Positions 1-62,737 of a DNA stretch of 64,000 nt are shown here, one piece after another. Position 1 is the first letter of the stretch, and every line of letters starts with the position of its first letter. Origin of the DNA: Actinomycetota bacterium (GTDB lineage: Bacteria; Actinomycetota; Actinomycetes; Actinomycetales; Microbacteriaceae); NCBI GenBank assembly GCA_020160915.1, contig JAIUPK010000002.1, positions 62,001 through 126,000 of the forward strand. Direction: 5' to 3'. A model generated the notes under the pieces. It made no database searches, was not told the origin of the DNA, and saw nothing but the letters and a program-made list of their open reading frames with translations. Position numbers and translations under genes: made by a program.

Positions 1-450
1 TGCAACGGCTTCCAGATTCTCGTGGAATCCCACCTGCTGCCCGGCGGTCTCGTGCGCAATGATCACGGCGACTTCATCTGCCGGGACCAGCGCCTGCGCG
101 TGGAGAGCACCTCGACCGCGTGGACCAACGGGTTCACCGAGGGCCAGGAGATCACCGTTCCGCTGAAGAACGGCGAGGGCGGCTTCATCGCAGACGCGGA
201 GACGATCGCCCGGCTCGAGGGCGAGGGACTCGTCGTGTTCCGCTACCTCGACGTGAACCCCAACGGCTCGATGAACGACATCGCGGGCATCGCCAACGAG
301 CGCGGTAACGTCGTGGGCCTCATGCCCCACCCCGAGCACGCGACCGAGCCCGGATTCGGGCCCGACACCGCCCTAGCCATGCGCTCGGGCACCGACGGAC
401 TCACATTCTTCACGAGCGTCGTGTCGGCCTTCGCCGCCCAGCTTGGTTGA
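1..450 (+). CDS. purQ: PurQ, C-terminal part (5' end outside the window)
   Basis: Glutaminase subunit of phosphoribosylformylglycinamidine synthase, which hydrolyses glutamine and passes ammonia to PurL in the fourth step of purine synthesis. The window opens at the nucleophile: the first codons read CNGFQ, the class I glutamine amidotransferase elbow. The other catalytic residues are in MPHPEH near the end. About the first third of the protein lies upstream. PurL is encoded 2.5 kb downstream rather than next door, so the two subunits are not in one obvious operon here. The TGA stop lies inside the hairpin repeat at 445-477. Confidence 0.96.
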   Translation, partial: CNGFQILVESHLLPGGLVRNDHGDFICRDQRLRVESTSTAWTNGFTEGQEITVPLKNGEGGFIADAETIARLEGEGLVVFRYLDVNPNGSMNDIAGIANERGNVVGLMPHPEHATEPGFGPDTALAMRSGTDGLTFFTSVVSAFAAQLG

Positions 451-477
451 GTAGCGGCGAAGCCGCGTAACGAAACC
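445..477 (+). repeat. Hairpin repeat, family A, copy 1
   Basis: 33 bp with arms GGTTGAGTAG and (here mutated) GTAACGAAACC around the inner stem GCGGC-GAA-GCCGC. The purQ stop TGA (448-450) is part of the left arm. Other copies: 16766, 16802, 22539, 22583, 44062, 53330, 54933, 54976, 55018, 55059, 62663, 62706. It could act as a terminator for purQ. Confidence 0.85.
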
Positions 478-525
478 GCCTCTCGGTCCATCCCCACCCC
501 ACCCACCCCGACCCGCAGGATCGCC

Positions 526-990
526 ATGCCCCCCAAGTCCCTCTTCCGTCTCGCCGCCTTCGCCGAAGCCGTCACCTGGACTCTCCTGATCGCCGCGCTC
601 ATCATTCGCGCGGTGACCGGGTTCGCGCCGGTCGTGACGATCGCGGGGGGCATCCACGGTTTCGTCTTCCTCGCCTACGGCGCGACTGCTGTGCTGCTCG
701 CCGTGAACCAGCGCTGGCACCCGGGTGTCGCCGCCATCGCGATCGTGAGCGCGATCGTGCCCTACGCGACGATCCCGGTCGAGCTCTGGCTCGCCCGCAC
801 CGGCCGTCTCGACGGCGAGTGGCGTCGCGAGACGACGGATGATCCGCGCGACAAGGTCTGGATCGACCGGCTCGCGAGGTGGTTCATCCGCCATCCCGTG
901 CTGCTGATCCTCGCGATCGCCGCGGCCGTGGTCGTGCTGTTCGTGGTGCTGCTGAGCCTCGGTCCGCCCCAGCTGCCCGGGCAGGGCTAG
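526..990 (+). CDS. DUF3817 family integral membrane protein
   Basis: 154 residues with about four hydrophobic segments (roughly residues 14-30, 36-58, 66-86 and 123-150). The N-terminal FRLAAFAEAVTW and the following GGIHGF-FLAY pattern fit DUF3817, a small actinobacterial inner-membrane family of unknown function. An AGGA element sits a few bases before ATG 526. It follows purQ across repeat copy 1 and converges on the next gene, sharing 4 bp at the stops. No enzymatic motif is visible. Confidence 0.8.
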   Translation: MPPKSLFRLAAFAEAVTWTLLIAALIIRAVTGFAPVVTIAGGIHGFVFLAYGATAVLLAVNQRWHPGVAAIAIVSAIVPYATIPVELWLARTGRLDGEWRRETTDDPRDKVWIDRLARWFIRHPVLLILAIAAAVVVLFVVLLSLGPPQLPGQG

Positions 991-1382
991 GGCCGCTCCC
1001 AGGCCTGTCGCACGAGGCGCTCGAGCACGCTCGGGTCGACCGCGTCGAGTCGCTTCACGTAGAGGCATCCCTTGCCTGTGGTGTGCGGCCCGAGCTGGTC
1101 CATGAGCGGATCGGGTGTGCCGTGGTACACGCCGTAGATCGACAGGGCCGCCTTGCGAGGGGAGAACCCCACGGTGAACCAGTCCGACGTGCCGCTGCCG
1201 CTCGGATAGGGTCGCGAGCCGAATCCGACCAGCGAGCTCCCCCACAGCGTCGCCGGGGCTCCGGTGACGCGCTCCATGAGCTGCCGCAGTGCGTGACCCT
1301 CGGAACGGCGCTGCTCGCTCTCGATGGAGTCGAGGAAGGCCGTGACATCCGCGTCGGTGGGCTTGGTCTTGTTCTCTGCCAT
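987..1382 (-). CDS. DUF1801 domain protein
   Basis: 131-residue soluble protein. The pattern of a short helical N-terminus, then GFGSRPYPSG, W-TVGFSPRKAALSIY and KGCLYVKRLD matches the DUF1801 fold (YdhG-like), whose biochemical role is unknown. Transcribed against the upstream genes; start ATG 1382 is supported by a TAGCAT hexamer exactly 6 bases upstream, which predicts a leaderless mRNA. It probably stands alone, since the next minus-strand gene is more than 20 bp away and has its own possible promoter. Confidence 0.8.
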   Translation of the reverse strand: MAENKTKPTDADVTAFLDSIESEQRRSEGHALRQLMERVTGAPATLWGSSLVGFGSRPYPSGSGTSDWFTVGFSPRKAALSIYGVYHGTPDPLMDQLGPHTTGKGCLYVKRLDAVDPSVLERLVRQAWERP

Positions 1383-1388
1383 GGCGGG

Positions 1389-1394
1389 ATGCTA
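1389..1394 (-). promoter_or_regulatory. -10 hexamer, leaderless DUF1801 gene
   Basis: TAGCAT on the minus strand followed by 6 bases and the ATG at 1382. Same geometry as many other genes in this window. Confidence 0.6.
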
Positions 1395-1405
1395 GCGCCG
1401 ACCCG

Positions 1406-2257: not shown

Positions 2258-2353
2258 GGCACCAGCTTCGCACAGCCACGACCGCACCCACAGCCCATGA
2301 AGATGCGTACAATCCCCACTTCCTCTCGCACAGTTCTCGGTAAGACTGGTTTC

Positions 2354-16765: not shown

Positions 16766-16832
16766 GGTTTCGATACGCGCCTTCGGCGCTACTCAACCCG
16801 CGTTCGATACGCGCCTTCGGCGCTACTCAACC
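16766..16832 (-). repeat. Hairpin repeats, family A, copies 2 and 3 in tandem
   Basis: Two same-direction units at 16766-16798 and 16802-16832 with inner stem GCGCC-TTC-GGCGC. The arm CTACTCAACC faces the minus-strand septum-formation gene and supplies its TGA stop (16829-16827). Confidence 0.85.
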
Positions 16833-18251
16833 CGCGGGTAGCGGGGTGGGCGTCGGCGCCACCTGCGGAATGGCGATCGACTGCGTGAGATCCTCCCCGC
16901 CGGAACGGTTGACGAAGCAGTAGAACGTGCGGTTGCCGGTGGCCCAGTCCGCGGCATCCGCTGCGAAGCTCGCCTGCACCTGGATGTCGGTGGCCGCACC
17001 CGCCTTGCTGTAGTCGATGACTGTGGGTGCGGTGCAGAGCAGGTTGATGCGCTTCTGCAGCTCCTCCACGCCGGGGTAGGGTGCGGTGGCCTCGTCGGCG
17101 AATTCGCCGCGGTAGATCATCTGGGCCGGATGCGGCACAGTGCAGTCAACGACCGTGTAGCGATCCTGCCAGGCCGATTCGAACGGCTTCAGGCACTCGC
17201 CGCCCAACAGTTCGTCCCACTGGTAGTCACCGGGCGCGACCGGGCCGATCGGCAGCACGATGAGACTCGGGCTGGGACTCGGGCTGGGCGTGCTGACCGC
17301 GGGCGCGGGGCCGAGCACAGCGGAGAGCTTCGTGCCGACGAGGAACAGCGCGAACAGCGCGAGCACGGCAAGCAGGCCGCCGGCCACGCTCAGCAGGATC
17401 TTCTGGTTGCGTGGGAGGGCGCCGCGCGGACCTGCGGGCGGCTTCGTCGCACCGCCTCCGCCGCCGGCGGCGTTCGCGCGCGGCGGCGGGGCGGGGATGA
17501 ACTCGTCCGCGTACTCCTTGAACTGCGTCTCACCGAACAGTGAATCGATCGCGGATGCCTCGACCCCTTCGCCCTCGGGCGTCGCGAGTCCCACGATCTC
17601 AGCCTCGATCACCTCTGTCATCCCGTCGAGCGCGGGATCGACCGGAGCCGCCATCCACCGCATCGGGTCGGGCGCCTGCGGCTCGAGTTCCTGGCCCTGC
17701 ACGGGCATCGCCTGCGTCGCGCCCGGGTCGAACGGCGCCGTGAAGGCTTGGGTCGGAGGCAGGGTGGGAGCGGCGGTGGGTGGCTGGATGGGTGGCGCGG
17801 CGGGCGGTACGTACGGCTGCGCGGGAGGCTGCGGCGGCAGCTGCGGGAACGCCTGCGTCGCGAACGGGTCGACCGTTGGCTGCTGCTGCGCGGGTGGGAC
17901 TGCGGGCGCGGCTGGCTGCACAGGTGGCTCGGGCTGCTGCGCCGCCGGGGGCGTCGGGTCGGAACTGCCCGACGGGCTCAGTCCCCACTGGAACGGTGCG
18001 CCGGACGAGGGCGGCGGCGCAACGGGAGCCGCGAACGGCGGCGCGGCGGGAGCGGGCGCCGCCGGTGCGGCGGGAGTCGGCGGCGCGGCGGCCGGCGGCG
18101 CGACGGGCTGCTGCGGTGCTACGGGCGGGCGGGCATCCGCGGGCGGGCGGGCATCCGCGGGCGGGGCGACCTCGGGCTCGGGAGCGCCGAACTGACTCGC
18201 CAGCCAGTCGCTGGGGTCGAGCTCGTCGTCCGGAGTGCGGTCGTCCGTCAT
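16827..18251 (-). CDS. Proline-rich single-pass protein with septum-formation domain
   Basis: 474 residues. Residues about 25-190 are Pro/Ala/Gln-rich and probably disordered in the cytoplasm. A single membrane helix lies near 283-305 after a basic PRNQK anchor. The outside part (about 340-455) has the Septum_form pattern: GECLKPF, VDCTVPHPAQMIYRGEF, LLCTAP and FYCFVNRSGG, with four cysteines likely in two disulfides. Related actinobacterial proteins are linked to septation or envelope; the exact role is unproven. Overlaps pyrE by 4 bp. The final codons and stop come from repeat copy 3. Confidence 0.83.
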   Translation of the reverse strand: MTDDRTPDDELDPSDWLASQFGAPEPEVAPPADARPPADARPPVAPQQPVAPPAAAPPTPAAPAAPAPAAPPFAAPVAPPPSSGAPFQWGLSPSGSSDPTPPAAQQPEPPVQPAAPAVPPAQQQPTVDPFATQAFPQLPPQPPAQPYVPPAAPPIQPPTAAPTLPPTQAFTAPFDPGATQAMPVQGQELEPQAPDPMRWMAAPVDPALDGMTEVIEAEIVGLATPEGEGVEASAIDSLFGETQFKEYADEFIPAPPPRANAAGGGGGATKPPAGPRGALPRNQKILLSVAGGLLAVLALFALFLVGTKLSAVLGPAPAVSTPSPSPSPSLIVLPIGPVAPGDYQWDELLGGECLKPFESAWQDRYTVVDCTVPHPAQMIYRGEFADEATAPYPGVEELQKRINLLCTAPTVIDYSKAGAATDIQVQASFAADAADWATGNRTFYCFVNRSGGEDLTQSIAIPQVAPTPTPLPAG

Positions 18252-21156: not shown

Positions 21157-22548
21157 ATGTCCCGAGTCACTGTTACCCCCACACGCGACGCGATCATAGG
21201 AGAGCCCGAGGTCGTCGAGGACATCGTCAGCCTCCCCGCCTGGCGTCGCCTCAAGTCCGCCGTCAGCTCGCTGCGCACGCACCAGGTCAAGGACGGCAGC
21301 ATCCCCGACGCGACGATGCACGGCGACTGCCGGGCCCTGATCGCGACGATCCGCGCCGACATCCGCGACCTGTCCGGGCACTTCCCGCACGATGCCGAGT
21401 ACCTCACCGCGCTCGACGCCGACTTCGCGCGCTGGGCCGAGGGCGGGTTCGGCGAGCTCGACTTCCTCGACTCGCTCGTCGCCTTCCAGCCGCAGCGCGA
21501 CCGCGTCGACGGGATGCGCCACCTGGTCGTCTTCCCGATGTACACCCAGAACGGCTCCAGTGACCGTCGCGTCGAGGCGGTGCTCATCGAGGTGATCTGG
21601 CCCGAGTTCATCGCCGACCTCGAGGCGGGCGAGTACTCGAACGCGCTGTTCGTGCCGATCCGGTTCCTGGACTTCACCGAGGGCTACGACACCAACTCGG
21701 CCGTGCTGTTCCCCGAGACGGTCGCGATGCGCGAGATTCCACACTTCACGTGGGGTGCGATCTTCGCCGACCGCGAGGCCGCACGGTTCCGTCGGGTGGT
21801 GCGCGCGGCATCCGAGATCACGAAGCTCGACCTGCCCGAGGATGCCGCGGCATTGCTCGACGACCAGGCGCTCACGGAGGAGACCTTCGTGATGTGGGAC
21901 CTCATCCACGACCGCACCCACATGCGCGGTGACCTGCCGTTCGACCCGTTCATGATCAAGCAGCGGATGCCTTACTTCCTGTACTCGCTGGAGGAGCTGC
22001 GGTGCGACCTCACGGCGTTCCGTGAGGCGGTGAGGCTGGAGCGCGCGCCCGAGACCGACGAGAACACCCGGTCGCACGCCAAGCTCGTGCAGTACGCCGT
22101 GATCTTCGACCGCATCTTCCGGTTCGCGATCACCGGCTCGCGCGTGCGCAACTACGACGGGCTCGGCGGCCAGCTGCTATTCGCCTGGCTGCACCAGCAC
22201 CGCGTGCTGCACTGGACCGACACCCAGCTCACGATCGATTGGGCCGAGGTGCCCGATGTCGTGGTGGAGCTGTCCGACGCGATCAACGACCTGTACTGGA
22301 AGTCGATCGACCGCCCCAAGATCGCCCACTGGCTCGCCGCCTACGACCTCGTTGCGGGCACGCTCACGCCGCATCCAGCATCGAAGTGGGCGGTGCGCGA
22401 CCTCGCGCTCGAGGGGCTGCCGCGCGAACTCACCGACGCGGTCATGGATGACGAGTTCCCGCTGTCGATGTTCTACGAGGCGCTCTCGAAGAAGATGACC
22501 GACGTGATCGAGTCGACGTCGGGGATCACTGGAGCGCTGGTTGAGTAG
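21157..22548 (+). CDS. DUF6421 family protein
   Basis: 463 residues, soluble. I recognise the DUF6421 type from actinobacteria, which has no known function. Visible features: an HMRGD context in LIHDRTHMRGDLPFDPF (about residue 250) with closely spaced histidines, then LEELRCDL, which together look like a possible metal site but are not a canonical HExxH. ATG 21157 has a strong GGAGG Shine-Dalgarno at 21146-21150, so it has a leader, in contrast to its neighbours. The stop TAG (22546-22548) belongs to repeat copy 4. An SDR gene follows across the repeats. Confidence 0.75.
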   Translation: MSRVTVTPTRDAIIGEPEVVEDIVSLPAWRRLKSAVSSLRTHQVKDGSIPDATMHGDCRALIATIRADIRDLSGHFPHDAEYLTALDADFARWAEGGFGELDFLDSLVAFQPQRDRVDGMRHLVVFPMYTQNGSSDRRVEAVLIEVIWPEFIADLEAGEYSNALFVPIRFLDFTEGYDTNSAVLFPETVAMREIPHFTWGAIFADREAARFRRVVRAASEITKLDLPEDAAALLDDQALTEETFVMWDLIHDRTHMRGDLPFDPFMIKQRMPYFLYSLEELRCDLTAFREAVRLERAPETDENTRSHAKLVQYAVIFDRIFRFAITGSRVRNYDGLGGQLLFAWLHQHRVLHWTDTQLTIDWAEVPDVVVELSDAINDLYWKSIDRPKIAHWLAAYDLVAGTLTPHPASKWAVRDLALEGLPRELTDAVMDDEFPLSMFYEALSKKMTDVIESTSGITGALVE

Positions 22549-22613
22549 CGGCGCGGCCGCGTATCGAAACCAGCCCGACGAGGGTTTCGATACGGCCTCC
22601 GGCCTACTCAACC
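22539..22613. repeat. Hairpin repeats, family A, copies 4 and 5, inverted pair
   Basis: Copy 4 (22539-22571, plus orientation, inner GCGGC-GCG-GCCGC) and copy 5 (22583-22613, minus orientation, inner GGCC-TCC-GGCC) face each other over 11 bp. The pair could fold as two hairpins or one long one. Copy 4 donates the DUF6421 stop; copy 5 ends 5 bp before the next start codon. Confidence 0.85.
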
Positions 22614-22618
22614 GACTC

Positions 22619-23224
22619 GTGCTCGTGGCCGGCGCCTCCAACGACTCCGGCCGCGCCGTCGCCACCCGGTTGACGGATGCCGGTGCCCGCGTGCTGGCCG
22701 TCGGCTCCGACCTGCGCCGCCTCGCCGAGACCCCCGCCGTATCCCGCTACGAGTGCGACCTCGCAAGCCCCCGCGGCGTGGACAGTCTCGCGTCCCGCAT
22801 CCACGCGGAGCACGGGCCGATCGATGGTGTCGTGCATCTCGTGGGCGGCTGGCGCGCGGGCCGCGCCGACGACGACTGGGCGTGGCTCGAGTCGCGGGTG
22901 GTCGAGACGTTCCGCAACACGAGCCGGGCCTTCTTCGAGGACCTCAAGGCCTCGCCCGCAGGGCGGCTCGTGATGGTGTCGTCGACCTCCGTGGAGGCGC
23001 CGACCTGGTCCAACGCGAACTATGTCGCGGCGAAGTCCGCAGCGGAGGCGTGGGCGCGCAGTGCTGCATCGGGGTTCGCTAAGGAGGGCACCGCGGCATC
23101 CGTGATTCTGGCAGTGGCCTCGCTGGGACATGACGGCACGCCCGTCGGTGTGCTCGCCGACCGCATCGTCACTCTCTGGGACGAGCCAGCGGCCGAGCTC
23201 AATGGAGCGCGCATCACGCCCTAG
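22619..23224 (+). CDS. SDR-family oxidoreductase
   Basis: 201 residues from GTG 22619. The glycine motif is LVAGASNDSGRAVA at the very N-terminus and the dinucleotide-binding DL sits at about 42-43. The usual NNAG is replaced by HLVGGW; the active site is S-ST then YVAAKSAAEAW (YxxxK). Sequences with HLVGGW resemble SDRs found beside DUF6421 genes, consistent with the neighbour. A TTG at 22541 would start translation inside a repeat and is unlikely. Substrate unknown. Confidence 0.82.
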   Translation: MLVAGASNDSGRAVATRLTDAGARVLAVGSDLRRLAETPAVSRYECDLASPRGVDSLASRIHAEHGPIDGVVHLVGGWRAGRADDDWAWLESRVVETFRNTSRAFFEDLKASPAGRLVMVSSTSVEAPTWSNANYVAAKSAAEAWARSAASGFAKEGTAASVILAVASLGHDGTPVGVLADRIVTLWDEPAAELNGARITP

Positions 23225-42351: not shown

Positions 42352-43191
42352 ATGCCCGCCGCCCGCGTCGCCCTCGCCACCCTCAGCCGCGTCGCCCCCG
42401 CACTGGGAGCCGAGGTGGGGTGGCGGCTGTGGCGCCACGTCGGCGCGCCACAAGCCGTGCACGAGCGCGACTCGCTGGTGCACAAGTGGGCGTACCGCGA
42501 GGTCGTGGATGTGGGCGGCCGCGAGATCATGACCTACCGCTGGGGGTCGGGAGAGCGCGTGATACTTCTCGTGCACGGGTGGCGGAGCCGGGCATCCCGA
42601 TTCTCGGCTCTTGTCGCGGCCCTGCAGTCTGCCGACGTGACTGTCATCGCCTTCGACGCGCCAGCGAACGGTGACTCACCCGGGCGGCTCGTGACGATCC
42701 TCGACTACGCCGCCGCGATCGAGGCACTGTCGCTGCGGCACGGCCCGATCGACACGATCGTGGCGCACTCGTTCGGGGTGCTCGCGACCTTCGTCGCCGT
42801 GCGCGAGGGCGTGACCGTCAAGCGCATCGTCGGAATCTCGGGGATGGCGAATGCCGACCAGCTCGTCGACAAGTTCTGCGCCCTCGCCGGCCTGGGCGCC
42901 CGAGCCGTGCGCGGCATGCGGCGACGGATCGAACGCCGCACGTTCCCCGAGGTCGTCGACCCCTGGAGCCGGTTCGTCGCCGAGCTGGACCCGTCGGCCA
43001 CTCACGTGCCCGTGCTCCTGGTGCACGACACGGATGACGCGACCGTCGATCCCGGCCAGGCACTGCTCATCGCCGACGCGCACACCGGGCCGGTGCACTC
43101 CGTGATCACCTCGGGACTCGGCCACCTGCGCATCCTCAGCGACCCCGCGGTCGTGGAGGAGGTGCGGCGGTTCGTCGTCAGCGAGCGGTGA
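42352..43191 (+). CDS. Alpha/beta hydrolase
   Basis: 279 residues. LLVHGWRSRASRF forms the oxyanion loop, AHSFGVLA (about 141-148) is the nucleophile elbow with the serine, DDATVD supplies the acid, and GHLRILSD the catalytic His near the end. ATG 42352 has AAGGA 7 bases upstream. Substrate unknown. Controlled by the divergent TetR repressor, by position. The 3' end overlaps crtEb by 14 bp on the other strand. Confidence 0.9.
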   Translation: MPAARVALATLSRVAPALGAEVGWRLWRHVGAPQAVHERDSLVHKWAYREVVDVGGREIMTYRWGSGERVILLVHGWRSRASRFSALVAALQSADVTVIAFDAPANGDSPGRLVTILDYAAAIEALSLRHGPIDTIVAHSFGVLATFVAVREGVTVKRIVGISGMANADQLVDKFCALAGLGARAVRGMRRRIERRTFPEVVDPWSRFVAELDPSATHVPVLLVHDTDDATVDPGQALLIADAHTGPVHSVITSGLGHLRILSDPAVVEEVRRFVVSER

Positions 43192-44038
43192 GCGCCCACC
43201 AGATCATGAGCATCGTCACGAAGAACCCGGTGATGAAGTTGAGGAGCAGGAATCGCCGCCACCCACGGTTGGCGGTGTCGGCCGCGGCATCCGTCACGTT
43301 CCAGAACGGTGCGCAGACCGCGGCGTACGGCAGCACGAGGATCGCTGCCAGAGGCCCGGGCCACGCGCTGAACAGCAGCAGCACTCCGCCGAGGAGGTAG
43401 GCGATCACGGCGAAGCGCACCGTCCAGCGGGCGCCGATCACCGTCGCGATCGAGGCGATGCCGCCCTCGCGGTCGGCGATGACGTCCTGCACCGCACCGA
43501 ACGCGTGCGACGCCATGCCCCACAGGAAGAACGCGCCGAGCACCGCCCACAGTTGCGGCGTGAACACCGCACCCGCCAGCACGAGGCCGTAGACCGCGGG
43601 CGAGACGAAGTGAGTGCTCGAGGTGATCGAGTCGAGGAACGGCTTCTCCTTGAAGCGCAGCCCCTTCGCCGAGTAGGCGACCACCGCGAACAGCGAGATC
43701 GCCAGCACCAGCCACGACAGGGGCGACCCCACGATCACGAGGTAGACGACGAACGGCACGGTCGTCACGACCGAGGCGATCAAGGTCGGCCGGTGCATCC
43801 GGGTGTCGAGAAGGGCACCCTCGACGCCACCCTTGCGCGGGTTGCGCAGATCGGACTCGTAGTCGAAGACGTCGTTGATGCCGTACATCGCGAGGTTGTA
43901 CGGGATGAGGAAGAAGATCGTGCCCACGATCAGGGTCACGTCGACCTGGCCGGTGGTCAGCAGGTAGGCGGCCGCGAACGGGAACGCGGTGTTCACCCAG
44001 CTGAGGGGCCGGGATGACACGAACAGCGCCTTAAGCAT
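43178..44038 (-). CDS. crtEb: Lycopene elongase, UbiA-family prenyltransferase
   Basis: 286 residues with eight to nine membrane helices. YGINDVFDYESDLRNPRKGG (about 54-73) is the first Asp-rich prenyl-PP site and QDVIADREGGI (about 183-193) the second. Adds C5 units to lycopene to give C45 and C50 carotenoids. Last gene of the carotenoid operon, overlapping crtYf by 8 bp. Assignment rests on the UbiA motifs plus the cluster. Confidence 0.93.
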   Translation of the reverse strand: MLKALFVSSRPLSWVNTAFPFAAAYLLTTGQVDVTLIVGTIFFLIPYNLAMYGINDVFDYESDLRNPRKGGVEGALLDTRMHRPTLIASVVTTVPFVVYLVIVGSPLSWLVLAISLFAVVAYSAKGLRFKEKPFLDSITSSTHFVSPAVYGLVLAGAVFTPQLWAVLGAFFLWGMASHAFGAVQDVIADREGGIASIATVIGARWTVRFAVIAYLLGGVLLLFSAWPGPLAAILVLPYAAVCAPFWNVTDAAADTANRGWRRFLLLNFITGFFVTMLMIWWALTAR

Positions 44039-44384
44039 CGGTGGGCTCCTCCTCGGGGGCGGGTCTCGATACGCCCTCTGGGCTACTCGACCGGCGGCCG
44101 TCGAGCAGGGCCCACAGCGCGGGCAGACCCACGACCGCCGCCACCGCGTAGGCGAAGTCCTCGAGCGGCGCGACCCCCACGAACGCCCCGGATATCGCGG
44201 CCGGGTTGTAGGCGACAAGCCCGACGGAGATCATCACGTTGTCGAAGATCGCCGTCATCACCAGCACCACGGCCGCCGTCAGGGCGACCGCCGGCCAGCG
44301 CGGAGTGCGGCGCACGATGAGTCCCGCGATCACGAGCACCGCGACCGGCACGAGGAACACGACGTTGAGCGCCCAGTAGGTCAT
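44031..44384 (-). CDS. crtYf: C50 carotenoid cyclase subunit, CrtYf-like
   Basis: 117 residues, three membrane helices. The pattern FDNVMISVGLVAY-P and PLEDFAYAVAAVVGLPALW is that of the lycopene cyclase domain. Works as a heterodimer with CrtYe to close the rings of C50 carotenoids. Residues about 98-107 of the tail are encoded by a degenerate family A repeat (44062-44092), so the C-terminal extension is repeat-derived. Overlaps crtYe by 4 bp and crtEb by 8 bp. Confidence 0.9.
   Translation of the reverse strand: MTYWALNVVFLVPVAVLVIAGLIVRRTPRWPAVALTAAVVLVMTAIFDNVMISVGLVAYNPAAISGAFVGVAPLEDFAYAVAAVVGLPALWALLDGRRSSSPEGVSRPAPEEEPTDA
44062..44092 (-). repeat. Hairpin repeat, family A, copy 6, inside crtYf
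   Basis: Arms GGTCTCGATAC and GTAGCCC/CTACTCGACC with inner GCCC-TCT-GGGC. Both arms carry T-to-C changes relative to other copies. It is read through in frame as part of the CrtYf tail. Confidence 0.7.
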
Positions 44385-44764: not shown

Positions 44765-46440
44765 GGGGCCGGCGGGGTCGCTTCGGTGTTCGAGCCTGCT
44801 TCGGTGATCGAGCGCGCTTCGGTGATCGAGCCTGTCGAGATCGTCGCCGGGGTCTCGACAAGCTCGACCACCGGGGGCTCGACCGCCGACGGCACCAGCG
44901 GCTCGGCCATCGGCTCGGTCGACGTGTCGCCACGCAGTCGCTTGATCAGGATCTCAGCGCTGATCAGGCACATCGGCAGCCCGATGCCCGGGATCGTCGA
45001 GCCGCCCACGTAGTAGAGCCCGTCGACCTTCTTCGACACGTTGCCCGCCCGGAAGAACGCGCTCTGCTTGAGCGTGTGCGCAGGCCCTAGGGCCGTGCCG
45101 CGCCAGGCGTGCAGCTCGTCGGCGAAGTTGCCGGGGCCCACGGTGCGGCGCACGGTGATGCGCGAGGCCAGATCCGGGATGCCCGTCCAGTCGGCGATCT
45201 GCGCAATGACCCGGTCGGCCAGCACCTCGATGCGGGTGTCCCCGTCACCGTCGACGTCGCCGCGCCCGATCGTGGGATCGGCGGGGATCGGCACGAGCAC
45301 GAACAGGTTCTCGTAACCTTCGGGCGCGACATCCGGATCGACACCACCGGGCTTGCAGATGTAGAGCGAGGCGGGCTCGGGCACCGACGAGGGGGTTCCG
45401 AAGATGGCGTCGAAGCCACGCTCCCACTCGCGCGTGAAGAGCAGCGTGTGGTGCTCCAGCTGCGGCAGTTCGCCCTCGACGCCCAGATAGAGCAGCAGAG
45501 CGCTGGGGCCGGGGGTCTTCGTGTCCCAGTACTCCTGCGGGTAGGTCTGCTCCTCGGGCTTGAGCAGCTCGGTCTCGCTGTGGTGCAGGTCGGCGGCCGA
45601 GACGACGATGTCGGCGTCGGCGAACTGGATCTCCCGATGCTCGTCGAGGTACTCGACGCCGGTCGCCTTGCCATTCTCCACGACGATGCGCGTGACCTCG
45701 GCGCGGGTGATGATCGTCGCGCCCTCGGCACGCGCGAGGTCGGCGATCGACTCGATCACGCGGGTGAAGCCGCCGATCGGGTACAGCACTCCGTCGGCCA
45801 GGTCGAGGTGGCTCATGAGGTGGTACATGCTCGGGGTCAGGTACGGCGACGAGCCGAGGAACACGGCCGGGTAGCCGAGCACCTGGCGCAAACGCTGGTC
45901 GTGGAACTTGCGCCCCACGAGGCTCGACAGCGGCTCGAGCAGCAGGCGCAGGAACTTCGCGGTCTTCGAGAGCACATCCCGGCGAAGCAGGGTGCGGATG
46001 TCCGCGAAGGTCGTGTACAGAAAGCGCAGCTTCGCGAGTTCGTACGTTTCCCGCGCGGAGTCCAGGTACTTCTCAAGCCGATCGCCGGCGCCGGGCTCGA
46101 TGGCCTCGAACAGCTCGAGGTTGTCCTCGAGTTCGGCCGAGACATCCAGCGGCTCGGCGACGCCCTCGAAGTAGACGCGGTAGCCGGGGTCGAGGGTGAC
46201 GAGCTTGAGCTGCTCGTCGGCCGAGGTTCCCAGCAGCTTGTAGAAGTGGTCGAAGACCTCGGGCATGAGGTACCAGCTCGGGCCGGTGTCGAAGCGGAAG
46301 CCATCCTGCTCCCAGCTGCCGGCGCGCCCGCCGACCTCGGGGCGTCCCTCGAGCAGGGTCACCTTGTGGCCCTCGCGAGCGAGCAGGGCGGCACTCGCGA
46401 GTCCCGCGATGCCACCCCCGATGACGACGACGCGACTCAT
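44761..46440 (-). CDS. crtI: Phytoene desaturase
   Basis: 559 residues. FAD-binding VVIGGGIAGLASAALLAREG (4-23) then EVGGRAGSW; the C-terminal carotenoid-dehydrogenase signature is YYVGGSTIPGIGLPMCLISAE (about 485-505). Four desaturations turn phytoene into lycopene. The final 45 residues are an extra low-complexity tail, with PPVVELVETP and three SITEAR-like hexapeptides encoded by intergenic-type repeats (44781-44874). Overlaps crtB and crtYe by 4 bp. Confidence 0.96.
   Translation of the reverse strand: MSRVVVIGGGIAGLASAALLAREGHKVTLLEGRPEVGGRAGSWEQDGFRFDTGPSWYLMPEVFDHFYKLLGTSADEQLKLVTLDPGYRVYFEGVAEPLDVSAELEDNLELFEAIEPGAGDRLEKYLDSARETYELAKLRFLYTTFADIRTLLRRDVLSKTAKFLRLLLEPLSSLVGRKFHDQRLRQVLGYPAVFLGSSPYLTPSMYHLMSHLDLADGVLYPIGGFTRVIESIADLARAEGATIITRAEVTRIVVENGKATGVEYLDEHREIQFADADIVVSAADLHHSETELLKPEEQTYPQEYWDTKTPGPSALLLYLGVEGELPQLEHHTLLFTREWERGFDAIFGTPSSVPEPASLYICKPGGVDPDVAPEGYENLFVLVPIPADPTIGRGDVDGDGDTRIEVLADRVIAQIADWTGIPDLASRITVRRTVGPGNFADELHAWRGTALGPAHTLKQSAFFRAGNVSKKVDGLYYVGGSTIPGIGLPMCLISAEILIKRLRGDTSTEPMAEPLVPSAVEPPVVELVETPATISTGSITEARSITEAGSNTEATPPAP
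44781..44874 (-). repeat. Repeats, family B, inside the crtI 3' end
   Basis: Three tandem 18-bp units (44781, 44799 and 44817) of the type CTTCGGTGATCGAGCCTG, then a TCGAGATC tail and a separate unit at 44851-44874 with GGTCTCGACAAGCTCGACC. Related copies are at 48916, 48945, 56416 and 56473. Confidence 0.75.
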
Positions 46441-50787: not shown

Positions 50788-50858
50788 GCGGATGTAGTTC
50801 AATGGCAGAACTTCAGCTTCCCAAGCTGATAGCGCGGGTTCGATTCCCGTCATCCGCT
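50788..50858 (+). tRNA. tRNA-Gly (anticodon CCC)
   Basis: 71 bases plus cloverleaf fit: acceptor GCGGATG/CATCCGC, D arm with GTTCAATGGC, anticodon stem TCAGC/GCTGA enclosing loop TTCCCAA (anticodon CCC), T arm with GGTTCGATTCC. Discriminator T; the 3' CCA is not encoded. Reads the GGG codon. Confidence 0.97.
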
Positions 50859-50871
50859 CAGAGAATGTCAC

Positions 50872-53329: not shown

Positions 53330-53362
53330 GGTTTCGATACGCGCCTTCGGCGCTACTCAACC
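53330..53362 (-). repeat. Hairpin repeat, family A, copy 7
   Basis: Inner stem GCGCC-TTC-GGCGC. The CTACTCAACC arm supplies the TGA stop (53359-53357) of the DinB gene, and the unit sits between two convergent genes. Confidence 0.85.
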
Positions 53363-53875
53363 GGCCTTCGTCACGTCCCACAGGTGGTGGATCGGGTCGT
53401 GGATGAAGTACTTCGCGAACGTCTCGATCGTGAACGAGACCCCGTCGCTGCGTCGGCCGGGGCGGCTCCAGTCCGCGACCGTGTCGAATGCGTCGGCGAG
53501 CGCCGCGGCATCCGCCACCAATTCGGCCGACACCACCTCGGGCGACTGCTCGTTGTAGCGCTCCTCGACGGCGGTCGCGTCCTGGTCCCAGTTGGGGAAC
53601 AGCGGGTCGTGTTCGGCGAGCATGAGCCCCAGCCGATACAGGTAGATGCGGAAGACATCGCGCACATGAGCCGCGTACTCGAGCTTCGACCAGGTGCTCT
53701 CGTCGGGACGCTCGCGCACATCGTCGCGCTCGAGCACGGCGGGCCACGAGGCCGCGTTGGCGCGGATCATGTCGGCGACGTCGGTCGCCTCGAAGGTGCT
53801 CGCGTCGAATGCGCACTCGGGGCAGGGCTTCTCGAGCACCCACGTCCAGTTCTTGGTGTCAGGGGTTATCGCCAT
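53357..53875 (-). CDS. DinB-superfamily protein
   Basis: 172 residues, four-helix bundle of the DinB/YfiT type. Conserved-looking acidic and histidine positions: SWPAVLERDD, WSKLEYAAHVRDVFRI (His near 69) and a C-terminal KYFIHDPIHHLWDV (His near 159 and 163), the usual metal triad arrangement. Thiol-dependent metal transferases or isomerases belong here, but the role is unknown. A weak CACGAT hexamer is 6 bases before ATG 53875. Stop donated by repeat copy 7. Confidence 0.85.
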   Translation of the reverse strand: MAITPDTKNWTWVLEKPCPECAFDASTFEATDVADMIRANAASWPAVLERDDVRERPDESTWSKLEYAAHVRDVFRIYLYRLGLMLAEHDPLFPNWDQDATAVEERYNEQSPEVVSAELVADAAALADAFDTVADWSRPGRRSDGVSFTIETFAKYFIHDPIHHLWDVTKAG

Positions 53876-54281: not shown

Positions 54282-54929
54282 ATGAGCGTCATCCCCTTCT
54301 CGCAAGCCCTTCGCGAGCGCACCCGTTCGAGTCACGGCGACAGCGCCGGCGCGACGTTCATGAGCGACCTGATGACCGGCAAGGGCTCGCGCGACGACTA
54401 CATCGCGCTCGTCGCCCAGCACTACTACATCTACGAGGCCCTCGAGGCCGCCGCCCTCCGGTTCGCGGATGACGCGGTCGCATCCCCCTTCATCAGCCCG
54501 CAACTGACGCGGCTGCCCGCCTTGGAGCTCGACCTCGACTACCTCGTGGGACCCGACTGGCGCGACGCCCACCCTCCCGTGCCCGCGACCACCCGGTACG
54601 TCGACCGCATCACCGAGGTCGCCGACGAGGGCTGGGCCGGCGGATTCGTCGCCCACCACTACACGCGCTACCTCGGGGACCTCTCCGGCGGCCAGGCGAT
54701 CGCGAAGATCATGCAGCGCCAGTTCGGCTTCGAGACCAACGGTGTCGCGTTCTACATCTTCGACCAGATCGCCTCCCCGAAGGAGTTCAAGGAGACCTAC
54801 CGCGACCAGCTCGACTCGGTCGAGTGGGATGCCGCGGAGCGCGAGCGGGTCATCGACGAGGTGCTACTCGCCTACACGTTCAACACGGATCTGTTCATCG
54901 ACCTCGCCGCAGCGAAGGCTGCTGCCTAG
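54282..54929 (+). CDS. hmuO: Heme oxygenase (biliverdin-forming)
   Basis: 215 residues, all-helical. Proximal heme ligand His18 in TRSSHGD, distal helix GDLSGGQ (about 132-138), and HHYTRYLG. Opens heme to biliverdin, CO and ferrous iron, releasing iron for the cell. CAGGAG before ATG 54282 is a good ribosome site. The upstream iron box indicates repression when iron is plentiful. Ends 3 bp before a string of family A repeats. Confidence 0.95.
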   Translation: MSVIPFSQALRERTRSSHGDSAGATFMSDLMTGKGSRDDYIALVAQHYYIYEALEAAALRFADDAVASPFISPQLTRLPALELDLDYLVGPDWRDAHPPVPATTRYVDRITEVADEGWAGGFVAHHYTRYLGDLSGGQAIAKIMQRQFGFETNGVAFYIFDQIASPKEFKETYRDQLDSVEWDAAERERVIDEVLLAYTFNTDLFIDLAAAKAAA

Positions 54930-54932
54930 GCG

Positions 54933-55089
54933 GGTTGAGTAGGCCAAAGGCCGTATCGAAACCCCAACCCAGGCGGGTTGAGTAGGCCAAAGGCCGTATC
55001 GAAACCCCCCCTAGGCGGGTTGAGTAGGCCGAAGGCCGTATCGAAACCCCACACCTGAGGTTTCGATACGCGCTTCGCGCTACTCAACC
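54933..55089. repeat. Array of family A hairpin repeats, copies 8-11
   Basis: Three plus-oriented units at 54933-54963, 54976-55006 and 55018-55048 (inner GGCC-AAA-GGCC twice, then GGCC-GAA-GGCC) with a period of 42-43 bp, then an inverted unit at 55059-55089 (inner GCGC-TTC-GCGC). It fills the gap between convergent hmuO and the helicase gene and resembles bacterial BIME arrays. Not a CRISPR: there are no spacers and units are palindromic. Confidence 0.88.
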
Positions 55090-55092
55090 CGC

Positions 55093-56388
55093 CTAAGCGC
55101 GAATCGCCGGGATCGCAGTCGTGCGGGACATGAAACGCACCACGTTCTCGTCGACGATGATGTCGCTGGGGCGCAGCGGACGCGTCAGGTAGAGACCCTC
55201 GAGCTCGCTGATGCGGCTGAGGGCCACGTAGGTCTGGCCGGGCGCGAATGAGCGCTGGCCGAGGTCGACGATCGCGCGGTCGTAGGTCTTGCCCTGCGAC
55301 TTGTGGATGGTGACCGCCCACGCCAACCGCAGCGGGAACTGCGTGAACTCGGCCACGACATCCTTGCGCAGCGACTTGGTCAGCGGCGAGTAGTTGTACT
55401 TGAACTTCTCCCAGACCGCGGGCTTGACCTCGTGGCGCTCACCGTCGATCTCGACCCACACGGTCGTGTCGATCTTCAGAACAGTGCCCACACTGCCGTT
55501 CACCCAGCGCTGCGACTCGCCGCCGACGTCGTTGCGCAGGAACATCACCCGCGCGCCCACCTTGAGTTCAAGCGCCTCGTCGGCCGGGTACGCGCGCCCA
55601 CCGAACTCGCCGTTGATCTCGGCCCGCGCGGTGAGCACCCGACCGGGCAGGCGGGCGAGCTCGGTGGCGTTGATGCGCGTGACGGTGCCGTTCGTGGTGG
55701 CCAGGGTGATCGCGCCATCCGTCGGGGCGGGTCTGGCGCCCACCTCGTTGAGGCGACCCGCGATCTCGGCGGTCACGTATCCGTGCCGCACCGCGTTGAG
55801 CATGCGCTTGAACTCGTCCTCGTGCTGGCGATGGATGGTCGACAGCTCGTAGATCGTGAGGTCGGTCTCGTCCCAGACCTTCGCGTCGAAGAACCACATC
55901 GAGTCGTACCGGTCGGCGAAGTAGGCGCGCTCGTCGCCCTCCCCCGGCACTGGGGCGAGCTGGTACGGGTCGCCGAACAGCACCACCTGCACCCCGCCGA
56001 ATGCCTCGTTCTTGCGCTGGCGGGCCTGCCGCAGCGACCGGTCGATCGCATCGAGCAGGTCGGCGTTGACCATCGACACCTCGTCGATCACGAGGGTGTC
56101 GATCGTGTTGAGGAGCTTCTTGAGTTCCGCGCTCTGGTCGATGTCGTGGTCGGCAATGACGCCGATCGGCAGACGGAACAGCGAGTGGATGGTCTGCCCG
56201 CCCACGTTGAGAGCGGCCACGCCGGTCGGAGCGCTGATCACGAGCTGCTTCGAGGTGTTCCACGACAGGTAGTTGAGGAGGGTCGACTTGCCGGTGCCGG
56301 CACGGCCGGTGACGAAGATGTTGTCGCGAGTGGTCTCGATGCGGTCGTAGACGGCCTGCTGCTCAGGGGACAGGCTCACCTCGCTCAC
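55093..56388 (-). CDS. PIF1-like helicase
   Basis: 431 residues, superfamily 1B 5'-3' DNA helicase. Motif I GRAGTGKSTLL (about 26-36), motif II LVIDEVSMVN, motif III FGDPYQLAPV, then motif V/VI AWAVTIHKSQGKTYDRAIVDL and YVALSRIS near the C-terminus. It unwinds forked DNA or G-quadruplexes in known relatives. GTG 56388 has TACAGT exactly 6 bases upstream. The stop TAG (55095-55093) is 3 bp from repeat copy 11. Confidence 0.92.
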   Translation of the reverse strand: MSEVSLSPEQQAVYDRIETTRDNIFVTGRAGTGKSTLLNYLSWNTSKQLVISAPTGVAALNVGGQTIHSLFRLPIGVIADHDIDQSAELKKLLNTIDTLVIDEVSMVNADLLDAIDRSLRQARQRKNEAFGGVQVVLFGDPYQLAPVPGEGDERAYFADRYDSMWFFDAKVWDETDLTIYELSTIHRQHEDEFKRMLNAVRHGYVTAEIAGRLNEVGARPAPTDGAITLATTNGTVTRINATELARLPGRVLTARAEINGEFGGRAYPADEALELKVGARVMFLRNDVGGESQRWVNGSVGTVLKIDTTVWVEIDGERHEVKPAVWEKFKYNYSPLTKSLRKDVVAEFTQFPLRLAWAVTIHKSQGKTYDRAIVDLGQRSFAPGQTYVALSRISELEGLYLTRPLRPSDIIVDENVVRFMSRTTAIPAIRA

Positions 56389-56394
56389 GGATTC

Positions 56395-56400
56395 ACTGTA
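56395..56400 (-). promoter_or_regulatory. -10 hexamer of leaderless PIF1-like gene
   Basis: TACAGT on the minus strand, 6 bases before GTG 56388. Confidence 0.6.
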
Positions 56401-56415
56401 CCTGCGGCGATGGTC

Positions 56416-56499
56416 GGGTCTCGGCAAGCTCGACCACCGGTGCACAGCCCGGCCTCGGTGCACAGGGCGGGCGGGTCTCGGCAAGCTCGACCACCGGTG
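56416..56499. repeat. Repeats, family B, two copies in a divergent promoter region
   Basis: Identical 27-bp units at 56416-56442 and 56473-56499 (GGGTCTCGGCAAGCTCGACC then ACCGGTG), 30 bp apart, between divergent leaderless genes. In other frames they would read VVELAET. Confidence 0.85.
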
Positions 56500-60382: not shown

Positions 60383-60618
60383 TAGATCTTCTCCCCACGG
60401 GCAAGAAGGTCCTTGACCACGGACTCGATGCCACGAGCGTCGATCACCTTGATGCCCTTGGCGGACAGCGTGAGCGTGACGCTACGGCGCAGCGAAGGCA
60501 CGAAGTAGGTCTTCTTCTGGATGTTCGGGTCGAAACGACGCTTGGTGCGTCGGTGCGAGTGCGAGATGTTGTGCCCAAAGCCGGGAACGGCTCCGGTCAC
60601 CTGGCAGACTGCTGCCAT
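60382..60618 (-). CDS. rpmB: Ribosomal protein L28
   Basis: 78 residues. [29 protein letters not shown] is the L28 N-terminus (read in blocks); only one cysteine, so no zinc site. AGGAG before ATG 60618 is the ribosome site; an in-frame ATG 33 bp upstream is ignored because it lacks conservation. First gene of rpmB-rpmG-rpsN-hup. The 190-bp region upstream holds an inverted repeat at 60648-60665. Confidence 0.96.
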
Positions 60619-60647
60619 GGGTGTACTCCTGTTCTGGTTACCGTGAC

Positions 60648-60665
60648 TCATCCACTGCTGGATGA
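60648..60665. promoter_or_regulatory. Inverted repeat upstream of rpmB
   Basis: TCATCCA (60648-60654), CTGC, TGGATGA (60659-60665), perfect; TGACTCA also occurs on each side. It is 30 bp before the rpmB start, where a zinc-responsive operator would be expected, but it does not look like the known Zur box. Confidence 0.35.
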
Positions 60666-60797
60666 CTCACCCAAGATCACTTGTCGGCACGCCTTGATCC
60701 CCTAACGTTTCTGGGGAGGCATACATGTGGGCGGAAATGCCCAACCTGTAGATACTACGTGGACGGCCCCGGCACGTGCAACCTGGCGCGTGTCTGC

Positions 60798-60803
60798 GAG
60801 AAT
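60798..60803 (+). promoter_or_regulatory. -10-like hexamer before dienelactone hydrolase gene
   Basis: GAGAAT, 6 bases, then ATG 60810. The first base departs from TANNNT. Confidence 0.4.
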
Positions 60804-60809
60804 CGCCCC

Positions 60810-61568
60810 ATGCCTCCCGTGTTGCAGGACATCGTGATCAGCCCGACCGTGGATGGCGCGAGCCTCCACCTCAAGGGACTGCTGGGCATCCCCGACTCAC
60901 CCGGCCCGTGGCCGGCGGTCGTCGTCGTGCACGAGGCGTTCGGCATCGAGGCGGAGATGCGCAAGCAGGTGACGCACCTGGCGAGTCTGGGATACCTCGC
61001 GCTCATGCCCGACCTGTACACCGAGGGCGGATTCCGCAAGTGCATCGGCGCCACCGCTCGCGCACTGCGCAGCGGCACCGGGCGCGCCTGGGCCGACATC
61101 GAGTCGGCGCGTCTCTGGTTGACCGCGCGAGACGACTTCACCGGCGCCCTCGGCATCATCGGCTTCTGCATGGGTGGAGGATTCGCGCTGCTGGCCGCGG
61201 CGAGTGGGTATGACAGCGAGGAGACCGCCTATCAGGCGGCCGCCGTCAACTACGGCGTCCTGCCAGCCGACCTCGACGTGATCGAGCACTCCTGCCCGGT
61301 CGTCGCCAGCTACGGCTCGAAGGACCGCGCGGTCAAGGATGCCCCCGCCCGCCTCGAGGCGCTGTACACGCGTCTCGGGGTCGCCCACGACGTGAAGGAG
61401 TACCCGGGTGCTGCGCACGCCTTCATGAACGAGAAGCCGACGGGCCCGCTCCTCATCCGCCCCTTCCTCAAGATCTCCGGCATCGCGCCCGACCCGGTGG
61501 CCGCCGTCGACGCGTGGAAGCGCATCGACGCGTTCTTCGGCGAGCATCTGGTGTCGACCCGGCCATGA
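60810..61568 (+). CDS. Dienelactone hydrolase family protein
   Basis: 252 residues. VVVHEAFGIEAEMRKQ near 36-51, the nucleophile in GFCMGGGFAL (Cys about 119), an Asp in YGSKDRAVKDAP and His in GAAHAFMNE: the Cys-Asp-His triad of DLH. Hydrolyses dienelactone-type or related esters. Overlaps the LLM oxidoreductase by ATGA, so both may act in one degradation step. ATG 60810 chosen; upstream in-frame codons read as a Cys-rich stretch but lack a start with a ribosome site. Confidence 0.9.
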   Translation: MPPVLQDIVISPTVDGASLHLKGLLGIPDSPGPWPAVVVVHEAFGIEAEMRKQVTHLASLGYLALMPDLYTEGGFRKCIGATARALRSGTGRAWADIESARLWLTARDDFTGALGIIGFCMGGGFALLAAASGYDSEETAYQAAAVNYGVLPADLDVIEHSCPVVASYGSKDRAVKDAPARLEALYTRLGVAHDVKEYPGAAHAFMNEKPTGPLLIRPFLKISGIAPDPVAAVDAWKRIDAFFGEHLVSTRP

Positions 61569-62668
61569 GGATCGGATACGCCGTCGGCTACTGGAAGCAG
61601 GGGCCGCCGAAGGGCGCGCTGAAAGCGATCCGCACCGCAGAGCGCCTCGGCTACGAGTCGGTCTGGACCGCCGAGGCCTACGGCTCCGACGCGTTCACGC
61701 CGCTCGCGTGGTGGGGGTCACGCACGACGCGCATCAAGCTCGGCACCGGAATCGCGCAGCTCTCGGCGCGCACTCCCACCGCCGCGGCGATGGCGGCGCT
61801 CACCCTGGATCACCTGTCGGGCGGCCGGGTGATACTCGGGCTCGGGGCATCCGGACCCCAGGTCGTCGAGGGCTGGTACGGCCAGCCCTACCCGAAGCCG
61901 CTCGCGCGCAGTCGCGAATACATCGACATCGTGCGCCAGGTTCTCGCGCGCGAGCGCGAAGTGACCTCGGCCGGCCCGCACTACCCGCTGCCCTACACCG
62001 GCCCGGATGCCACGGGCCTCGGCAAACCGCTGCGCTCCACCGTGCACCCGCTGCGCGCCGACCTGCCCATCTATCTCGCCGCCGAGGGACCCAAGAACGT
62101 CGCCCTCGCCGCGGAGATCGCCGACGGCTGGCTGCCGTTCCTCTTCTCTCCGAAGGCCGACGCCGAGGCGCGCGCCCAGCTCGAGGAGGGGTTCGCCCTG
62201 CGTTCGCCCGAGCGGTCGCCGCGAGCGAACTTCGAGATCGCGTTGCAGCTCGCCGTGATCCCGCACCCCGACGTGGAGAAGGCGGCCGACATGGTGCGCC
62301 CGACGATCGCGCTGTACGTCGGCGGCATGGGCGCGAAGGGCGCGAACTACCACCGGAACGTGATCGACCGTTTGGGGTACTCCGACGCGGCCGACCGCAT
62401 CCAGGAGCTCTATCTTGCGGGCAAGAAGGCCGAGGCCATCGCCGCCGTGCCGACGAAGCTCGTGGAGGAGATCGCGCTCATCGGTCCGCCGGAGAAGATC
62501 CGCGACGAGCTCGCCGCGTGGGAGGAGTCGGTCGTCACGACCATGCTGGTGCAGGGGCCGGCGTTCGCGCTGCGGACGATCCGCGATGTGGTGCAGGGCG
62601 GGTCGCTCACCCGCGCGAAGCTGGGGGCGCTGGCGTTCGCGTATGCGACCCGTCGCCAGGCAGGTTGA
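61565..62668 (+). CDS. LLM-class F420/flavin-dependent oxidoreductase
   Basis: 367 residues, luciferase-like barrel. MRIGYAVGYWKQGPPKGAL at the start, GYESVWTAEAYGSDAFTPLAWWGS, LGTGIAQLSARTPTAAAMAA and GGRVILGLGASGPQVVEGWYG fit the Rv3520c-like F420-dependent family. Cofactor F420 rather than FMN is inferred from that resemblance. Its TGA stop (62666-62668) lies in repeat copy 12, which separates it from convergent zur. Confidence 0.9.
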   Translation: MRIGYAVGYWKQGPPKGALKAIRTAERLGYESVWTAEAYGSDAFTPLAWWGSRTTRIKLGTGIAQLSARTPTAAAMAALTLDHLSGGRVILGLGASGPQVVEGWYGQPYPKPLARSREYIDIVRQVLAREREVTSAGPHYPLPYTGPDATGLGKPLRSTVHPLRADLPIYLAAEGPKNVALAAEIADGWLPFLFSPKADAEARAQLEEGFALRSPERSPRANFEIALQLAVIPHPDVEKAADMVRPTIALYVGGMGAKGANYHRNVIDRLGYSDAADRIQELYLAGKKAEAIAAVPTKLVEEIALIGPPEKIRDELAAWEESVVTTMLVQGPAFALRTIRDVVQGGSLTRAKLGALAFAYATRRQAG

Positions 62669-62737
62669 GTAGCGCCGAAGGCGCGTATCGAAACCACACC
62701 CATCAGTTTCGATACGCCGCTTCGCGGCTACTCAACC
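62663..62737. repeat. Hairpin repeats, family A, copies 12 and 13, inverted pair
   Basis: Copy 12 (62663-62695, inner GCGCC-GAA-GGCGC) and inverted copy 13 (62706-62737, inner GCCGC-TTC-GCGGC), 10 bp apart between convergent genes. Copy 12 gives the LLM stop and copy 13 the zur stop. Confidence 0.88.

Follow-up and report, generated by a model that had tools for sequence, protein, structure and literature searches.

A new family of REPIN-like hairpin repeats with no known mobiliser in Actinobacteria, Chloroflexota and Treponema

The spread of REPINs is attributed to enzymes known as RAYTs. The window analysed here, a whole stretch of 64,000 nucleotides from an actinobacterium of the family Microbacteriaceae, carries a family of short hairpins of REP-like appearance, and the question it raises is what kind of element these are and what enzyme moved them. 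A preliminary description listed thirteen units of 31–33 bp at seven loci (445–62737), and exactly 13 are found when up to two mismatches per arm are allowed (Table 1). Both arms are exact in 9 copies, whereas 100 shuffles gave an expectation of 0. All 13 are also found by a covariance model, each at E < 1e-8, although for 7 of them this is a re-finding because those seven had trained the model. Its next-best match in the window, at 44851 (E 0.0019), was left out of the count.

Table 1. Hairpin elements of the window and the called genes next to them (genes from a simple GC-frame caller, not an annotation)
Element	Coordinates	Strand	Inner stem	Remarks
1	442..477	+	GCGGC/GCCGC	one 3'-arm mismatch; lacks the G at -3; own TGA (448-450) terminates the called gene upstream
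2	16766..16801	-	GCGCC/GGCGC	direct neighbour of element 3
3	16800..16835	-	GCGCC/GGCGC	3' arm imperfect; TGA terminates called gene 16827-18251 (-)
4	22536..22571	+	GCGGC/GCCGC	TAG terminates called gene 21157-22548; inverted pair with element 5
5	22583..22616	-	GGCC/GGCC	inverted pair with element 4
6	44062..44095	-	GCCC/GGGC	GGTC/GACC arm variant; within called frame 43178-44218, start of frame uncertain
7	53330..53365	-	GCGCC/GGCGC	TGA terminates called gene 53357-53875 (-)
8	54930..54963	+	GGCC/GGCC	begins directly after stop of gene 54282-54929
9	54973..55006	+		direct repeat of element 8
10	55015..55048	+	GGCC/GGCC
11	55059..55092	-	GCGC/GCGC	inverted partner, faces gene 55093-56484 (-)
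12	62660..62695	+	GCGCC/GGCGC	TGA terminates called gene 61514-62668; inverted pair with element 13
13	62705..62740	-	GCCGC/GCGGC	one 3'-arm mismatch; TGA terminates called gene 62732-63121 (-)

The repeat unit can be written as GNN-GGTT-GA-GTA-[G..stem-loop..C]-GTATC-GA-AACC. The last G of the 5' arm as first described is the first base of the stem, and its partner is the final base before GTATC; a stem register one base out gave no covariation, and the correct register takes in this G. The inner stem, said to pair always, does so in 13 of 13 window copies. The arms had been called invariant, which is true of the nine exact copies; three 3' arms are imperfect (445, 16800, 62705), and at 44062 the arms are of a GGTC/GACC variant. 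A feature missed at that stage is an isolated G at position -3, counted from GGTT, which played no part in finding the copies and is conserved at 92–100% in seven sets. At the 5' foot, each position of GTAG is conserved at 93% or more in six of the seven sets, while in Treponema the last two positions have 73% A and 69% G; the conservation of arms and GTAG is inflated because the arms served to choose the copies. Watson-Crick pairing at stem pairs 2–5 was seen in 92–100% of up to 78 copies of genome G000, compared with about 48–80% in shuffles, and the excess is also clear among 125 copies from Chloroflexota and 70 from other named Actinobacteria. Among 60 copies, 95.9% of pairs are formed (83.5% when shuffled) and 67 cells are changed on both sides (22.6 when shuffled). 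The covariation involves inner-stem pairs and one pair of the outer arms, and both-side changes at 6 of 11 pairs bear out the proposed selection for a folded form.

The host genome contains at least 149 copies by the covariance model, and 127 with exact arms against 0 for a reversed control pattern. The repeat, 31–33 bp in the window and longer in some other genomes, is what is generally called a REP: a palindrome of 20–40 bp, high in copy number and mostly intergenic. Exact arms recur in Actinobacteria, Chloroflexota and Treponema, in agreement with the idea that the arms are recognised. Palindromes resembling this one, of the wider form [stem]-GAG-...-TCGA-[stem], may also occur in Bacteroidetes and Proteobacteria. 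Copy number ranges from 0 to 192 inside one genus, and in genome G094 a composite some 130 bp long is found at dispersed positions (128 query matches including the self match). DNA uptake sequences are short words that occur also singly and within genes; in the window, each of the 12 exact 5' arms and each of the 9 exact 3' arms belongs to an element, and this candidate was rejected. Likenesses to attC sites and to the tRNA T-arm were considered and dropped.

REP-like behaviour, which had also been claimed, is visible in the placement of the copies. Of 148 copies, 61 have the 5' arm within 20 bp of the 3' end of a called gene: in 27 the arm contains the stop and in 34 it follows the stop, the 27 being partly circular because a frame that runs into the arm stops there. 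The 3' arm is so placed in 8 of the 148. Two of the three reading frames through the 5' arm meet a stop, TGA or TAG, and 14 of the 148 copies are located inside a called gene. Convergent gene pairs account for 23 of 46 with an element and for 55 of 270 without (Fisher p 6e-5). Neighbouring copies in six sets are arranged 99 times with the 5' arms outward, 42 times directly and 23 times with the 5' arms inward; this preference is not seen everywhere, inward and outward pairs being close to balance in Treponema (4 vs 3), G022 (9 vs 10) and G094 (5 vs 7).

Literature text searches with the arm sequences gave matches that, among those listed, look unrelated by title, in keeping with the earlier statement that the arms match no known REP family. 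As far as its text describes them, the GTAG REPs of Di Nocera et al. (2013; PMC3733652) are similar in having GTAG beside a short hairpin with covarying stems, inverted dimers with GTAG outermost, and positions between convergent or unidirectional genes, where they supply TAG stops to their neighbours. They are reported there from Proteobacteria, Cyanobacteria, Chloroflexi and PVC and show a bare GTAG, whereas the present repeat has fixed arms of about 9–11 nt on both sides, its exact arms extend to three phyla including Actinobacteria and Treponema, and no associated tyrosine transposase was found for it. A Chloroflexi GTAG family of that paper, set apart here by its text description only, could be related. 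With CGTC-tagged REPs, described in the same source from Spirochaetes among others, the repeat shares a REP-like form without a dedicated transposase, whereas its own tag is GTAG within GAGTAG. Like the REPINs and BIMEs of Escherichia and Pseudomonas (RAYT/TnpAREP) it forms inverted pairs, tandem arrays of pairs and a bulged hairpin next to GTAG. It differs from them in that its GTA foot opposes the GTA of the other strand and is closed by an outer stem, in the lone conserved G at -3, and in lacking an invariant CT dinucleotide, the site at which TnpAREP is described to cleave (PMC8266576, in part).

Movement by RAYT transposases, as the preliminary description suggested, was not supported. 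Y1_Tnp (PF01797) was not found in the host genome or in any of 89 repeat carriers of the family sample, and of the 23 carriers in the class sample 22 gave no match either, the exception being a single-copy actinobacterial genome with a Y1 gene. The inverted-pair unit of a RAYT-mobilised REPIN is present; a cognate Y1/RAYT gene flanked by the repeats was not found. Since the usual enzyme was not found, something else may have moved the hairpin. The repeats might still be ordinary RAYT-driven REPINs whose RAYT was lost or only transient after transfer, the present copies being an old Y1-spread population reshaped by recombination. The form shared with GTAG REPs (tag, inverted dimers, TAG stops) fits such an origin, E. 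coli genomes without RAYT keep their REPINs according to the relevant part of PMC8049555, and Y1 genes exist in all six Chloroflexota carriers tested. However, a full copy lies within about 1.5 kb of just 2 of the 21 Y1 loci in these six, in each case on one side only, which a rough estimate puts at about what copy density gives, and no convincing copy stands beside Y1 at 30 class loci of Actinobacteria or at 3 family loci. RAYT loss would have to be very general, because Y1 occurs in 0 of 89 and 1 of 23 carriers, and a published survey (PMC6006769) reports only IS200-type Y1 enzymes, of subclass 1.1, among the Actinobacteridae that it sampled. We consider this explanation unlikely.

Several other candidates were set aside in the search for a mobiliser. 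Single half-sites near loci L153, L154, L165 and L169 had no covariance-model support, and the family Y1 match L032 is, by eye, an IS200-like frame by a TnpB-like frame with no copy nearby. Clustering of the open reading frames of 115 named loci returned no mobiliser, only common housekeeping-type proteins (by eye), and 52 viral loci added to it contributed mostly phage structural genes (by eye). Genes between copies in the window and in stretches of G000, G022 and G004 showed no plausible shared family, with two weak similarities.

Comparison with relatives indicates how the copies change. Three window loci have copy-free sites in relatives: that of elements 2 and 3 in G024, G003 and G021, that of element 4 in G024, which shows a GTGA stop/start overlap instead, and, at the orthologous site, that of the inverted pair 12 and 13 in G003; one cluster of G094 has a copy-free site in G267. 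These relatives are only 66–87% identical among the matches listed, and the limits of the sites can be placed only to within a few bases; the relatives compared showed no transposition event marked by clean ends or a duplicated target. Between G094 and its close relative G366 (93–97% identical), three clusters were compared, namely the counterparts of L222, L223 and L224, using eleven G366 stretches chosen by guessed synteny, among which counterparts of the L225 and L227 sites were not found. One cluster has the same three copies in both genomes, another lacks one of three in G366, and the third has five copies in G094 and one in G366, a difference spanning direct copy to direct copy as recombination would leave. 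The third copy of cluster B, missing in G364, G218 and G366, reads as a loss because G164, a more distant genome, has it and G365 retains it in decayed form. Recent gain among the relatives of G094 was rejected, as differences at 93–97% identity look like recombination or loss. Such differences can arise by recombination between copies, which argues against active transposition; needing no new transposition, they also agree with the loss of a RAYT.

Recombination and gene transfer could also have spread a host-useful RNA element acting in termination or protection at mRNA 3' ends and kept by selection. Such a role agrees with the placement of copies next to stop codons and in gaps between convergent genes and with the recombinational change of arrays, and two inverted pairs fold as RNA far better than shuffles (z -10.3 and -5.6). 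Single hairpins fold little better than shuffles (z -0.5 to -2.0 in three copies), which counts against the mobile-hairpin reading favoured below. The tag of GTAG REPs is unpaired in the folded strand; in the predicted folds of three window copies the GTA is mostly in an internal loop and the last G is paired. Against this role, 21 of 26 same-genus relatives have no exact-arm copy, and folding alone would not require the G at -3 and the foot to be so strongly conserved. The hairpin is not a canonical intrinsic terminator, because no T-run follows it in G000, where the eight bases past the 3' arm are rich in C and G with no T majority. In an Rfam search of the window only a tRNA reached the gathering score, and the repeats match no curated family. 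A host-useful RNA element appears unlikely. Convergent or chance palindromes, although GC-rich palindromes are frequent in genomes of this kind, and remnants of one coding gene are virtually out of the question, being refuted by the shuffled (9 vs 0) and reversed (127 vs 0) controls and by copies that adjoin many different genes.

We favour, at a probability of roughly 0.56, non-autonomous REPIN-like mobile hairpins that have no resident Y1/RAYT detectable by PF01797, favour stop codons and convergent sites, and are reshaped by recombination; we regard them as a REPIN-like family that is new and for which no mobiliser is known. A strand-specific enzyme would read the single-stranded hairpin through the fixed GTA/GTAG foot, the bulge and the lone G, and would have placed copies, single or paired, at new sites. 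Because coding sequence is dense in this genome, purifying selection would then mostly spare those insertions that re-create a stop codon or land in the gap of a convergent gene pair, and copies at existing sites would later be multiplied or lost through recombination. We think that the mobiliser is an enzyme so far unrecognised or one that has diverged strongly, and that phages may deliver it. That a REPIN population in three phyla, a single-strand hairpin parasite of the usual kind, has been mobilised by an undiscovered non-Y1/RAYT enzyme reading GNNGGTYGAGTAG...GTATCGARACC is possible, and we propose it tentatively.

Actinobacteria thus harbour an abundant REP-like family in which nearly all sampled carriers have no Y1 that was found. 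Either RAYTs are dispensable for the spread of REPINs, or they have been very generally lost, or another enzyme acts. The question of the mobiliser is testable in genera where some genomes carry the repeat and others do not, the genus of G094 being one, and the stop codons borne by the arms hint at the way in which repeats of this kind accumulate along the ends of genes.

In form and habit the repeat is a GTAG-type REP/REPIN, and GTAG REPs in the published account share with it the tag, the dimers, the location at gene ends and the TAG stops (PMC3733652). The preliminary description had counted 13 copies at seven loci with an inner stem that always pairs, and both statements hold in the window at up to two mismatches per arm, with stems pairing in 13/13 copies; nine copies there have both arms exact against 0 expected. 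The host genome of the window contains 127 exact-arm copies (reversed control pattern, 0), and the genome-wide collection with a covariance model that had been proposed gives at least 149, a lower bound, since the model, trained on 60 distinct copies, scored 150 candidates.

For the anatomy, copies were gathered by their arms alone (up to two mismatches per arm) in seven sets: the host genome (78), the compared genomes G022 (29) and G004 (41), G094 (22; a carrier from a genus with carriers and non-carriers), Treponema (26), Chloroflexota (125) and other named Actinobacteria (70). Stem pairing is clearly above shuffled in the host, Chloroflexota and other Actinobacteria sets; in the remaining four, with their small numbers, a near-fixed pair or mismatched stems, the excess appears at some stem positions only. 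The co-varying inner stem of the preliminary description is confirmed in an alignment of 60 copies (those with a 12-base inner region only, hence part of the total), where 95.9% of cells are paired (shuffles, 83.5%). Both sides have changed at 6 of the 11 pairs, one of them an outer pair, at which ten copies have C-G in place of T-A. The G three bases before GGTT, not among the criteria for finding copies, is conserved at 92–100% in all seven sets, and the two intervening bases are more variable. In most predicted folds the outer stem carries a GA bulge, and a GTA/GTA internal loop lies between it and the variable inner stem. Single hairpins (three folded) are of no unusual predicted stability, and inverted pairs (two folded) are unusually stable, with z of -10.3 and -5.6 as RNA and -9.1 and -5.7 as DNA.

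Neighbouring copies form 16 pairs with 5' arms outward and 15 direct repeats in the host genome, 16 and 6 in G004, and 47 and 21, with 5 arms-in, at the named non-Treponema loci. Arms-in neighbours are many in G022 (9 vs 10 arms-out), G094 (5 vs 7) and Treponema (4 vs 3).

Mapping against gene ends, also proposed earlier, covered 148 distinct copies, found in the window and at 50 loci in the host genome, G022 and G004. The 5' arm lies within 20 bp of the 3' end of a called gene in 61 copies and the 3' arm in 8; 14 copies are inside a called gene. Where an element lies between two genes (46 pairs), the genes are convergent in 23 cases, tandem in 19 and divergent in 4; among the 270 pairs without an element the counts in the same order are 55, 146 and 69. 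This is an enrichment between convergent genes with p of 6e-5. A stop codon falls inside the 5' arm in 27 of the 61 copies, a partly circular count, but corresponding sites in relatives (table) help. At the window sites gene ends differ from those of relatives by about 1–8 codons (by-eye reading).

Loci of individual interest in the window, its host genome and other carriers
Locus	Coordinates	Observation
Window	16766-16835	No copy in G024, G003, G021 (G022 not alignable)
Window	22536-22616	Repeat pair in host; GTGA stop/start overlap in G024 (other three relatives not alignable across site)
Window	22541-23224	Frame stays open across elements 4 and 5 (the pair at 22536-22616), so a TTG inside the repeat may be the start of the downstream gene
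Window	44851-44872 (-)	Weak covariance-model match (E 0.0019), perhaps a short or decayed copy
Window	50788-50859	tRNA-Gly (CCC), only tRNA and only Rfam match of window
Window	62660-62740	Repeat pair between two convergent frames, ending both; in G003 the two convergent frames overlap at their stops (by-eye reading of sequence)
Host genome	G000:C3:390027-390297	Five identical exact-arm copies, single orientation, exact 60 bp spacing
L181, G022	G022:C1:1011547-1012049	Inverted pair four times at ~136 bp, BIME-like array
L132, Gordonia namibiensis	L132:3260-3547	Tandem array of seven half-sites at 42 bp spacing, the last a complete copy
L224, G094	L224:5704-6049	Five copies
L367, G366	L367:1359	One copy at the site compared with L224

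The likeness to REPs moved by RAYT transposases, drawn in the preliminary description, stands for GTAG REP/REPIN form and habit but not for the RAYT, one defining feature of RAYT-mobilised REPINs, which was not found. A search for a Y1-type transposase flanked by the repeats had been proposed; Y1_Tnp (PF01797, a search that could miss a very divergent relative) has no match in the host genome, and of the 14 control genomes five, E. coli included, gave a match in the same search. In the family the domain occurs in 3 of 299 genomes and in 0 of 89 repeat carriers; in the class it occurs in 64 of 394 genomes and in one of 23 carriers, G522, itself with one repeat copy. Among 29 chosen carriers it is absent from 22. 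Of the remaining seven, six are Chloroflexota, with 21 matches in all, and the seventh is a Treponema whose short match lies at the end of a contig. The covariance model places the repeat at 2 of 55 Y1 loci, both in Chloroflexota and on one side only (a pair at L151, one copy at L152). In the sample of one survey, subclass 1.1 are reported to be the only Y1 enzymes in Actinobacteridae (PMC6006769). In G279, a family genome without the looser pattern, a Y1 frame adjoins a TnpB-like frame (L032) in an IS200/IS605-like element. With the RAYT not found, the repeat is classed as a new REP variant and not as a RAYT REPIN.

The looser pattern is present in 89 of the 299 family genomes and in 23 of the 388 class genomes, and exact arms occur, among the matches listed, in Microbacteriaceae, Gordonia, Aeromicrobium, Anaerolineae and other Chloroflexota, and Treponema. 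Exact arms are also found in 32 stretches of viral contigs, and phages may carry the repeat between hosts. Recurrent neighbours of the repeat in the viral contigs L312-L363 look like phage structural genes.

Within the window's genus, 21 of 26 relatives have no exact-arm copy, and the copy number goes up to 192. Dispersed places in G094 carry a composite of about 130 bp that includes the spacer, with ~75–91% identity (among the matches listed), and against relatives at ~86–87% the G094 clusters differ in copies, one relative (G267) having none at one site. Three clusters comparable with the close relative G366 (93–97%) hold 3/3, 3/2 and 5/1 copies, and no new insertion was seen in them at this range. 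The five-to-one difference spans direct copy to direct copy and is therefore explained by recombination, by which repeat arrays grow or shrink. The copy number, the dispersed composites and the sites that are empty in relatives lead us to infer that the repeat has spread by copying. Spread of this kind does not conflict with an RNA role at gene ends, and such a role may be the reason that the copies are tolerated.
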